This document shows, in pieces, positions 10,101-42,652 of a DNA stretch of 64,000 nt. A program made the position numbers and the translations under genes. The notes under the pieces are model-generated. The model had not been told where the DNA came from and made no database searches. It saw nothing but the letters and a program-made list of their open reading frames with translations. Within the stretch, counting starts at the first letter, position 1; the number at the start of each line of letters is the position of its first letter. Source of the DNA: Leptobrachium leishanense (lineage: Eukaryota; Chordata; Amphibia; Anura; Megophryidae); NCBI GenBank assembly GCA_009667805.1, contig CM019063.1, positions 407,036,959 through 407,100,958 of the forward strand, read 5' to 3'.

Positions 10101-13100
10101 TTTTTATTTATTTTTTAGGATTTTTGGGGATTTTTTGGGTGAAAGTTTAGGTTTCCTAACTTATTTTAAAAGTAATTATGAGGGCTGTTTTTCTTTGCTG
10201 AACACATGCAGCTGAATTATTTTCTTACAACCTGTGTGCATTCAGCAATTTAGAAAATAGCTTTTTGGTTTGCTGCAATTGAAATTTATAAATGGTTTAA
10301 GAAATATTTAATAAAAACGGGGATTTTTTTAACATTGAAAACTATGGTGGAAAATTCGAATTGATATCAACTATCAAATTAAATTTGATATCAACTATTG
10401 AATTGATATCAACTATCAAATTGATCTTAACTTACAATACATGTAATAGTCAGCAAACGACTTTATGAAACAAATTAATTTAGTTTCACTGTTTAACCCT
10501 TTCGCTGCTGAGGCTTTTCCCGCCTCTGTGCTGAGGTCATTTTTACCGATTTTGCTCATCATGTTTAAATGCGTTTTGAAGGCTTATTTTAGTATATGAC
10601 CCAGACATATTATATATCGTTCTTTCCGTCAGACTCGGCAGATTCATAATATGTCATTATTATATGTATACGTCATGACCTGTCTGTATATTATAACAAA
10701 AAATGCAATAAAATATGAATTTTCAATAATTTACGTGTAAAGTGGTTTTTTTTTCACATTTTAACATGCGATCAATTGCGGTTATATTTTGTATGGGGTG
10801 CGCTTGTTAAAAAAATTAGAGATGGGGTCTCGTTACATTTTTTTGGGGGAAAATTACGCGATTTTTAACAAACGCACCGCATACAAAAATCGTTAGTGCA
10901 GCATCATTGTTCACATTATAATTGAAATGGGAACAGTATTGCTGCATTAACGAACCAAAAAAAATAAAAAAAAATGTTTATTTTTTTAATAATGTTTTTT
11001 TAAATATTTTTTTATTTTTATTTTTAATTTTTTTAAAAAACTTTTTTCATACTCATGTTTGGTATTGTTGGAACGGCCATGCTCTGGCCGATCCAACAAT
11101 ACCAAACATTAACCCCTAACTGCCACGGATCGGGAGATAGGGGGTTCCATTGGAACCCCCTATCTCCACCATTGGTGGTAGTTAGGGGTTAACTCCAAGA
11201 CTGGCGTCATCGTGCTATGCACGATGACGCCAGTCCTCAGGGGGAGTTCCCGGAGGCTTGGCCGACATCCAAGATGTCGGCCAGCTCCGGGAAAGGATCA
11301 CGAACCGGCGCTTTTCGGCGCCGATTCGTGATCCGGCCCCCATGGGGTTAATGCCAGGTACCATTTGGAAGGGCAGGCTGTGCCCTTCCAAACGGTGCCT
11401 GGGTTAACCCCCTGCATGCCGCCGATCGGGAGGGAGGTCACCCCTCCCTTTCAGGCGCCTCCTCCGCACATGCGGGGGCGGTGCCTGAATTAGGTGTCAT
11501 CGCGCCCCCGCGATGACACCTAATTACTCCGGGGGCGGTTCCGGGTGCTGGGCTGACATCGAGGATGTCAGCCCGAACCGGGGGGGCCAGCGATCGGCCG
11601 GAACCCGGCCGAACGCTGGCCCCAAAGGGAGGACGCGCTCAGCGCGTCCACCGCACGGAACGCAACCTGCGGGTGGACCCGGTGAGCGCGTCCTCCGCAG
11701 CAAACTGGCTAATTCGACTGAAATACTAAATCTGTGGCACAGCTTAATATTTAACCCTAGCTTGTCTTTTAACAGCAAAATTTGATTAATTGGGGTTTTA
11801 TTTAGTGATCCAAAATTCGATTTGATATCAGCTATCGCATTGATATATTAACTATCGAGTTGATAATTTGATATATCAATTCAAATCGATATGAAATTTT
11901 GAACCGATCCAAAACTAAACAAAATTAGCAACGAAATTACGAAAACTAAATTATTTTAAACGAAAAGAAACTAAATGAAACAAAACAAAATTTTCAGCTG
12001 TGCACTCCTCTACTCTGCCGTACAACCACAGTTTATAGTAACTTTTTGAATAGTGATTTACTCATGGGAACTTGTAGCTCTCATATCATTGTATTTTTGA
12101 GGATAAGTGTTTCTTGGTCAATGCCATTTTTAAAACAATAAATAAAAATACATCACCTAAATACTCAGAACACACCCCACACCATTATCATGATGCTAAT
12201 GCTCAGTTACACTAACCTTCTTTAGATTGTAAGCTCATTTGTGCAGGGCCCTCTATATCTCTTGTTTCTCTTTTCCTCATTCCCTTTGGCTATTGTAAAA
12301 CGTTGCACAAACTGTTGGCATTAATAAATTATGATATTAATAATTTATTTCAGATGAATAAGGCCATTGTGTACATTGAAGAAATGGACACTGTTGCAGA
12401 TGTGACATTTCCAGCTGTTCCTCAGGTCGTCTCACTTTTAATATATGATGACACTTCAAAAGCCAAAGAAAATCCACATCCACCAACGGGTTACCCTGTT
12501 GTGTGTGTCACGGTATGTATTGTATGGAAGTAGCAAGGCACGGATAAACCCATAATGCATAAATACAATACCACTTGTGTGTGCTCACATGGAATCCTGG
12601 AGAACAAATATCTAGATGTTACAGTTACAGTTGCAAGTATTTATAACGTGCTAATAAATTCTGTAGAATGTACAATGGGTGAGACAAAATAACAAATATA
12701 CATACATGTAAAACACACAGAACAGTAGGAGAGAGGACGTGAGACGATGAAGACACTCTACTAGTGTTTTTTAATTATTGAATGAGAAGGGTGTAAACTT
12801 TTCGGTCATCTTAGGCTAGGGTCAGAGTGGGGCAGTCGGAACGCGCGTGCAGACGCACTAAATCACGGCGGCAGTAGCAGCACATAACGGCCAATGACGG
12901 CCAATATACGCAGTACGTGCGTACAAAAGTGCGCCGACACCACGCAACCAGCAAATGAACGCATTTTTCTCAGAACGTGAAACCGCTGCTACTGACGTAC
13001 AAAGTGCGCGGCGGCCGCATGGCAGCGTGTGTGCGTGATTAGGAGACGTCAGACGCTGCTAGTGTGCGGCCTACATAACGTTCAAACAGCCGGATTTCCC

Positions 13101-41406: not shown

Positions 41407-42652
41407 CCCCTTAAGGACGGGAGTAATTTTACAACTTCGGCGCTGTTTCGGAAGTAGAAGTTTGCTGCGCTCATTTTGACCATTTTTAAGTCACGTATTC
41501 TTATACCACCCAGACAAATTATATATCGTTCTTTCCGGCAGATTAATAATATATCATTATTATATGTATATGTCATGCCCTGCCAAAATGCTGTAACAAA
41601 AAATGTAAAAAAAATTGAATTTTCAATAAAATTTCAATCTTCCACAGTGTGTAAAGTGTTTTTTTTTTTTTTAATTTTATTATCCGAGGCTCTGCGGTCA
41701 TATTCTATTGGGTAGATTTGTTAAAAAAATTAGAACGGGGAACCCATTTTTTTTTTGGGGAGAAATTGCGTGATTTTAGCTAAACCCCCCAAAAAAAAAA
41801 TCATTAGTGAAGCATCATTGTTCACATTATAATTGAAATGTGAACAATAGTGCTGCATTAAAAAAAACAAAAAAATGTTTTATTATTATATTATTTTTTT
41901 ATTATTTAATTTATTATTTTTTTATTTTTACTTTTTTTACACTTTTATTTCACTTTTACCATGGTCATGTTTGATATCATTGGAAAGGCCATGCTCTGGC
42001 CTTTCCAGCAATATCAGCCATGACCCCCTAGCTGCCACCGATCAAGAGATAAAGGGGTTCAAACAATCCCCCTATCTCCTGCAAGGGATTTCCATGGGAA
42101 ATCCCTTTGCAGCTAGGGGGTTCCCGGTTAACTGACATCATCGCGCATGGCGCGATGAGTCAGTTGACCGGGGGGTGACCCAGAGGTGGGGGCTGCCATC
42201 CAAGATGGCGGCCCCCACCGGAAATAGGCTGCGATCGGGCACAAATTAGTGCCCGGTCGCGACTTGGCAACTAAGGGGTTAACCCCCCATACATCGCTGG
42301 AAAGGTCAGGCTGTGACCCTTCCAGCGATGCTGGCCACAGCCGCCGGGGACCAGGCGATCGGGAAATAGAGGGATCCGAAGGATCCCTCCCCTCCCCTCC
42401 AGGCGCTTCCCCTGCTCCGGCGGGGGGGGGGGGGGACGCCTGAAACTGACGTCATCGCGCCACCGGCGCGATGACGTCACAACGCCGGAGGAGGGATCAC
42501 ACTGATCTGACTCCGGGGGAGTCAGAACAGCGTGGGAGCGACCGGAGAAGGTGAGTATCTCCCGGGGGGGCTCTAAACGCCGAGGACGTACATTTACGTC
42601 CTGCGGCGGCAAAGCCCGCCTAATGCAGGACGTAAATGTACGTCCTGCGGCG
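41407..42652. mobile_element. Hairpin-chain element, copy B (TTAA insertion)
   Basis: This 1,246 bp non-coding element is flanked by TTAA at 41403-41406 and 42653-42656. Removing it and one TTAA rejoins the Penelope-like frame exactly, so the borders are certain. Ends are CCCCTTAAGGACG and CGTCCTGCGGCG. Hairpins: 41960-42022, 42025-42120, 42130-42165, 42185-42219, 42231-42260, 42292-42330, 42369-42389, 42401-42441, 42447-42479, 42508-42524 and 42583-42645. GGTGAGTATC lies at 42550-42559. Confidence 0.88.

Follow-up and report, generated by a model that had tools for sequence, protein, structure and literature searches.

What keeps the two arms of a hairpin complementary while their sequences change? 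This question is raised by a stretch of 64,000 nucleotides of Leptobrachium leishanense DNA (assembly GCA_009667805.1, contig CM019063.1, positions 407,036,959 to 407,100,958 of the forward strand), here called the window. It contains two transposon-like elements, copies A and B, each with a chain of hairpins. An initial annotation of the sequence noticed that the arms had changed on both sides together, and took this to mean that pairing itself is maintained; the causes it offered were selection on folded RNA or DNA and conversion between the arms. We searched the genome (3.54 Gb, 4632 contigs; the window is part of contig 1) for further copies. Pairing was maintained by compensation in the transposing lineage, with no sign of this in the youngest landed copies, and the left end of a relative that carries a transposase frame was found to hold a similar chain. 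The elements are as follows.

10493..11712, + strand: copy A with its target site, a non-autonomous piggyBac-type element
10593..11050, + strand: AT-rich 5' half of A, holding the motif counted across the genome
41403..42656, + strand: copy B with TTAA on each side, a member of a young subfamily

Copies A and B are piggyBac-type MITEs

Copies A and B are non-coding, non-autonomous piggyBac-type elements (miniature inverted-repeat transposable elements, MITEs), a known kind of transposon. Copy A (10497-11708) has TTAA before it (10493-10496) and a mutated CTAA after it (11709-11712). Copy B (41407-42652) lies between TTAA at 41403-41406 and TTAA at 42653-42656. The boundaries first annotated for both copies were exact. 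The longest ATG frames in the consensus sequences had 133 amino acids in A (lysine-rich, out of a poly-T stretch) and 57 in B. A motif of the AT-rich half had 68,346 genome matches (34,266 forward and 34,080 reverse; at most two mismatches; reversed control 0), and a hairpin 4 pattern with free positions had 72,284 (at most one mismatch; control 0). The family is thus short, without coding capacity and high in copy number, as MITEs are; its length of 1.2 kb is long for a MITE.

Among the A-type copies, 56 of 77 had both ends and TTAA; among the B-type copies, 22 of 23 did. The best 40 genome matches of a 401-bp piece of B, B itself included, were 97-100% identical, indicating that B belongs to a young burst. 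A-type copies were older and more varied. A 10593-11167 and B 41502-42079 were 73.7% identical over 601 aligned positions, a stretch that comprises the AT-rich half and the beginning of the hairpin half. The piggyBac superfamily hallmark is described as CC[C/T]T at both ends (PMC2872659). The 5' end of A (CCCT) fits it, and the 3' end of A (CCAC) and the 5' and 3' ends of B (CCCC and CGCC) deviate. At the contig 1 copies L023/L024 and L064, a second motif lay 450-550 bases off, which suggests tandem or nested insertions.

The 3' halves fold into a chain of hairpins

The 3' half of each copy is a row of stems with 9-35 pairs, mostly 14-23, and loops of 3-6 bases. Sequences were folded as DNA with G.T pairs disallowed. 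The fold of A 11055-11700 reached -275.5 kcal/mol, against -124.7 ± 5.5 in 40 dinucleotide shuffles (z -28), and that of B 41960-42655 reached -241.7 kcal/mol, against -123.5 ± 6.5 (z -18). The family consensus sequences folded 37 (A) and 26 (B) standard deviations below dinucleotide shuffles, whereas a control segment of the window (50000-50650) gave z -0.2.

The chain was as first annotated; its hairpins number not about ten but about 12 in A and 11 in B, some nested or branched. The arms quoted earlier are present in the sequence. For the first example, compensation held at one pair (A-T in A, C-G in B) and failed at another (C-G in A, T.G in B). Some hairpins retained their loops (ATGCTCT, GGCTG, CAA), as first annotated; across subfamilies, however, the unpaired columns of the hairpin half varied more than the paired ones. 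By eye, several old, divergent copies retained the hairpin order with different arm sequences. The hairpins are listed below.

A hairpin 1, 11055..11109: loop within ATGCTCT
A hairpin 2, 11109..11192: outer stem TTAACCCCTA around a GGAGATAGGGGGTTC stem
A hairpin 3, 11199..11235: GTCATCGTGC-TAT-GCACGATGAC
A hairpin 4, 11247..11293: GGCCGACATC-CAA-GATGTCGGCC; one pair A-T, C-G in B
A hairpin 5, 11295..11334
A hairpin 6, 11341..11414: GGCTG loop; stepwise compensation
A hairpin 7, 11431..11449: AGGGAGG/CCTCCCT
A hairpin 8, 11450..11489
A hairpin 9, 11488..11525: core GTCATCGCG; by eye resembles a duplicated hairpin 3
A hairpin 10, 11541..11582: GCTGACATC-GAG-GATGTCAGC; by eye resembles a duplicated hairpin 4
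A hairpin 11, 11583..11623
A hairpin 12, 11628..11696: terminal double palindrome near the 3' end; consensus arms each with GGACGCGC..GCGCGTCC
B hairpin 1, 41963..42025: loop within ATGCTCT
B hairpin 2, 42023..42121: CCCCCTAGCTGC stem around two hairpins
B hairpin 3, 42123..42172: CATCGCGC-ATG-GCGCGATG
B hairpin 4, 42185..42219: GCTGCCATC-CAA-GATGGCGGC
B hairpin 5, 42226..42264
B hairpin 6, 42292..42330: GGCTG loop
B hairpin 7, 42369..42389: GAGGGATCC-GAA-GGATCCCTC
B hairpin 8, 42447..42479: core TGACGTCATCGCGC
B hairpin 9, 42498..42534
B terminal double palindrome, 42571..42652: GGACGTACATTTACGTCC / GGACGTAAATGTACGTCC; homologous with the transposase-bearing element at its left tip

In the A-type consensus, hairpins 3-4 (706-806) and 9-10 (1019-1110) resemble an old internal duplication by eye. 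The putative duplicated cores are TCATCG, then ACATC-nnn-GATGT.

Hairpin arms covary among genome copies

We collected 119 distinct copies, comprising 98 of the 100 listed contig 1 motif places, 20 of the 40 best B-type matches and the window copies. The A-type sample was the first listed contig 1 places with an exact motif rather than a random draw; the two omitted places were neighbours of included ones. The covariation sets held 65 A-type, 77 A-type and 23 B-type copies, and 19 of the 119 copies were outside both the A-type and the B-type alignment. Positions inside locally misaligned stretches were excluded from the counts of private changes and of paired and unpaired columns. In the controls, 3' partners were swapped among pairs of the same letters.

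Among the 65 A-type copies, 242 pairs gave 229 compensated-double cells, against 26.5 ± 10.6 in 20 exchanges. A tree of the 77 A-type copies used just the 5' half, to keep the hairpins from shaping it. On its internal branches we found 22 compensated doubles, against a mean of 1.3 and a maximum of 4 in 100 exchanges. A full-length tree of the same copies gave 19 internal and 31 terminal compensated doubles. These were mostly isolated pairs, included transitions and transversions, and were spread over 15 of 18 helices; those on internal branches alone fell in 8 of the 18. Sixty-one pairs varied among nine subfamily consensus sequences, and 21 of them showed at least two Watson-Crick types. The covariation test over many copies that the initial annotation had called for thus found an excess, which supports its reading that pairing itself is maintained.

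Two hairpins illustrated how pairs changed. For the GGCTG hairpin, a step-by-step path of compensation could be read, with mismatch intermediates common to 3, 4 and 5 copies. For the hairpin 4 pair, the genome counts were 2,689 C-G and only 32 A.G and 33 C.T mixed forms, the A-T form being outside this count; no abundant intermediate was seen for its change from A-T to C-G. By eye, the first 100 listed genome places held 94 A-T, 4 C-G and 2 other forms. Mutation at CpG sites was about 3 times faster. CpG decay was rejected as the source of paired transitions, because many compensations were non-CpG pairs or transversions and the same-letter exchanges failed to reproduce the paired changes.

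The youngest landed copies do not show the compensation of the spreading lineage

Landed, non-spreading copies served as a control, because mutational correction should act in them too. Each of 74 copies (groups G2-G9 and young B) was compared with its own subfamily consensus; 24 of the 77 A-type rows were outside G2-G9, and the young B group excluded L070 and L085. The 46 best-resolved copies (G6-G9 and young B) had 146 private one-sided changes and 0 compensated ones. Conversion alone would give about 57 compensated changes in these groups at the 2.3% lineage mismatch level, and about 23 or 14 at assumed levels of 3.5% or 5%. The own folds of ten subfamily consensus sequences had 60 mismatches to 2525 pairs (1.1-3.5% per consensus). 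Group G1 had 4 members in this own-fold analysis and six in that of varying pairs. A linear-chain comparison of the group consensus sequences was not used for rates, as G4 was off that line. In the B-type set, all 8 private compensated doubles were in two divergent copies and none in 21 young copies.

Paired and unpaired columns also behaved differently. Among the G5-G9 consensus sequences, which represent the lineage, 13 of 435 paired columns differed, against 21 of 116 unpaired ones. Private changes in landed copies occurred at about equal rates (161/15523 paired, 43/4091 unpaired; Fisher p 3.6e-6 versus the lineage contrast). Paired sites were therefore constrained in the spreading lineage and hardly in landed copies (p 0.059 without CpG sites). 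The lack of compensated changes beside 146 one-sided ones in the 46 best-resolved landed copies, together with a paired-site constraint seen mainly in the lineage, indicated that pairing is most likely selected in the mobile lineage. These results suggest that pairing is kept only in copies still spreading and that folding matters for the movement of the transposon. The two alternatives originally offered can be separated, in favor of selection at the DNA level in the spreading lineage and against conversion in every copy.

A transposase-bearing relative carries a similar chain

A genome search for piggyBac transposase frames (DDE_Tnp_1_7) gave 116 scored matches among 10,296 first-look candidates. 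The partner element L119, read from contiguous pieces, is 5,188 bp long, has TTAA at each end and contains an open frame for a transposase. The frame (590 amino acids searched) matched PF13843 (E 4.9e-92) and the zinc finger PF13842 (E 1.5e-8). Over 3.2 kb, a second copy (L120 with L122) was 95% identical. From the left tip inward, L119 has a terminal palindrome, a stem chain, an A-rich tract, more stems and the transposase frame. Its first 500 bases folded to -206 kcal/mol, compared with -35 to -107 in the next nine 500-base blocks. The chain had 2 mismatches to 201 pairs in L119, and 2 to 163 in a related copy. L119 itself has CCCC at both termini. A tandem repeat of about 380 bp (two units, 97%) lies between the frame and the right end, at L119 2743-3501 and in L123.

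The 3' end of B aligned with the left tip of L119 with a score of 61, against a maximum of 32 in 500 shuffles. The 5' end of B and the right end of L119 scored a marginal 25 (shuffle maximum 24). Neither end of A exceeded the shuffle maximum against L119: the 5' end scored 26 (99th percentile 24, maximum 29) and the 3' end 18 (95th percentile 23). A is tied to the partner through B, by the 601 positions aligned between them. BLAST of the MITE consensus sequences against the L119 chain found, beyond the terminal palindrome, just AT-rich or very short matches. Because the 3' end of B aligns with the left tip of L119, the MITE + strand is antisense to the transposase, and through the same homology the transposase-sense strand of copy A is the minus strand. 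The TTAA target, the partner transposase and the homology of B's end with the partner place the family in piggyBac. By the same alignment, the chain makes up the subterminal region of the left end in the MITE and L119 alike.

Proposed explanation and alternatives

With moderate confidence, we propose that the left-end subterminal hairpin chain is needed in cis, as folded DNA, for transposition. The left-end subterminal region would have turned into a chain of DNA hairpins. Extruded hairpins or cruciforms might be read by their shape, by the transposase or a host factor; alternatively, the hairpins might shorten and bend the left end for synapsis with the right end. Copies with broken hairpins would spread less, and second changes restoring pairing would be favored. 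As the MITE encodes no transposase, it should be the moved DNA, and not a gene product, on which selection acts. A fuller version is tentative: the chain may be a folded-DNA address of a dozen hairpins, with drifting sequence and a selected fold, read by shape in transposition and used by a transposase element and tens of thousands of passengers.

Several observations weigh against this explanation. Terminal branches of the 5'-half tree carried 51 compensated doubles, against a mean of 11.9 and a maximum of 21 in 100 exchanges. Internal branches carried many one-sided changes (124; 157 in controls), indicating that single mismatches are tolerated. The 28 older, thinly sampled copies of G2-G5 had 12 private compensated and 216 one-sided changes, with 3 uncompensated doubles and 10 compensated cells common to several members; we ascribe their private compensated doubles to unsampled sub-lineages. 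With CpG sites removed, the lineage contrast was 9/339 against 10/97 and the landed one 73/12109 against 29/3426, giving the p of 0.059, and landed copies also changed less at paired sites (ratio 0.71). At 250 member cells the group consensus was mismatched, and 30 of these were paired, more than point mutation would give; mixed groups may explain this, and correction might too. Own-fold mismatches on the + strand leaned to A.C over G.T (21 to 10, p 0.07), which faintly suggests wobble pairs on the transposase-sense strand. Hairpin extrusion and the reading of hairpins by a protein are steps that we infer.

An unlikely alternative, though the one that survives best, is that the palindromes are dimer-binding sites in duplex DNA, for example for the transposase zinc domain, so that symmetry rather than folding is selected. 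The left-end palindrome of piggyBac and piggyBat is described as bound by two C-terminal domains (PMC11707139), copies A and B and the transposase-bearing element all have the terminal palindromes GGACGTAC/GGACGCGC, and by eye some hairpins look duplicated inside the chain. Against this, the hairpins within one element differ in sequence and their arms are long for such sites. Any base change was accepted if paired, unlike at one sequence-specific site; no systematic half-site search was made. The piggyBac and piggyBat sites, bound by cysteine-rich domains, are likewise palindromes near the left tip, but the same paper describes few sites of defined sequence, whereas the chain here is long and made of unlike sequences.

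Arms might also be corrected only during transposition or re-copying of the donor, with no need for selection. Such correction fits the contrast between the mobile lineage and landed copies, and it could account for the 30 re-paired cells. It does not alone predict the slower change of paired sites in the lineage, and mismatch intermediates common to several copies outlived transposition. In addition, piggyBac excision is seamless and proceeds without DNA synthesis. We regard this explanation as quite improbable.

Selection on folded RNA, in which transcripts of the chain would fold into hairpins and be processed or shield the element or its message, is more doubtful still. The L119 chain lies upstream of the open frame, and the A.C lean on the MITE + strand points weakly the same way. 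However, selection on RNA predicts that G-U pairs are favored, and the distinct lineage non-Watson-Crick states (14 G.T, 13 A.C, 27 other) fitted the terminal-branch mutation spectrum (p 0.85). Nothing in these counts supports wobble pairing of a single transcript strand. Moreover, the MITE makes no transposase, and no Rfam family matched the window at gathering score, by which a known structured RNA family was rejected. As wobble pairs were not favored, pairing is probably selected as DNA.

Arm-to-arm conversion or replication template switching in every copy, by which mutation and not selection would keep the pairing, has been proposed for RNA hairpins (PMC8794818) and would suit the terminal-branch doubles and the hairpin 4 change with its few mixed forms, but it is strongly disfavored and very improbable given the 0 compensated changes in the 46 young copies, a one-sided density in G2-G5 above the steady state permitted at the 2.3% level, and several compensations that seem to pass through mismatch intermediates common to several copies.

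Comparison with known systems

Coral CMITEs (PMC2872659) are described as having, like A and B, a TTAA target, no transposase, a conserved internal region and ends related to a transposase-bearing piggyBac-type element. They are about 100 bp long, whereas A and B are about 1.2 kb and their internal half is a hairpin chain with compensated change. A word search of the main text of that paper found neither "hairpin" nor "palindrom". Inverted repeats near the ends, as in A and B, are also described for piggyBac-like elements in PMC12324416, where it is proposed that hairpin or cruciform structure, rather than sequence, may be recognized. Those repeats are 5-15 nt by the search settings, compared with a dozen stems of mostly 14-23 pairs here, and the present data add evolutionary evidence from many copies for maintained pairing. 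The RNA hairpins discussed in PMC8794818 share the covarying arms and near-perfect stems. In that paper the evidence that short stems are kept up is called circumstantial and a mutational explanation is proposed, against which the landed copies speak here.

Two further identities were rejected. The Xenopus Kolobok T2-MITE (PMC6004289) is likewise a long-lived MITE family with a TTAA target, but T2 ends are given as AGGRR and those of full-length Kolobok as AG, whereas the A/B family starts with CCC, CCA or CGC. Stems of the chain are local and consecutive, and between the two ends of the A consensus only about 20 bp are in common, TTAA included. Foldback elements, in contrast, have long terminal inverted repeats that pair end to end. 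Among titles and abstract openings on transposon hairpin chains and structure and on piggyBac inner repeats, outside subscription journals and repeat libraries, no long hairpin chain with evidence for maintained pairing was seen. A literature search on covariation among transposon copies gave no paper.

Other repeats in the window

Another dispersed repeat has three copies in the window (23920-24830, 27255-28180 and 42694-43250; 74-79% identical), the last of which begins about 40 bases past the end of B. Hairpin groups at 55857-55908 and 61488-61589, with common GCACGAGT..ACTCGTGC stems, lie in another repeat and are 78.8% identical over 80 positions. Simple long foldback elements, each forming 65-87 base pairs and unlike the chain, were found at 4838-5052, 44291-44466, 45481-45632 and 61279-61454.

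Implications

Covariation is usually taken to prove that RNA is under selection, although a mutational alternative, template switching, has also been put forward. A family in which some copies have landed and others spread offers a natural control for telling the two apart, and here it points to selection on pairing in a DNA transposon that encodes nothing. Folded DNA at the end of a transposon would then be functional. The finding would bear on the open proposal that piggyBac-type proteins recognize a hairpin or cruciform, and the family would offer tens of thousands of natural variants. If the proposed role is true, the chain would be the clearest natural example of the structure-based recognition suggested for piggyBac-derived proteins.

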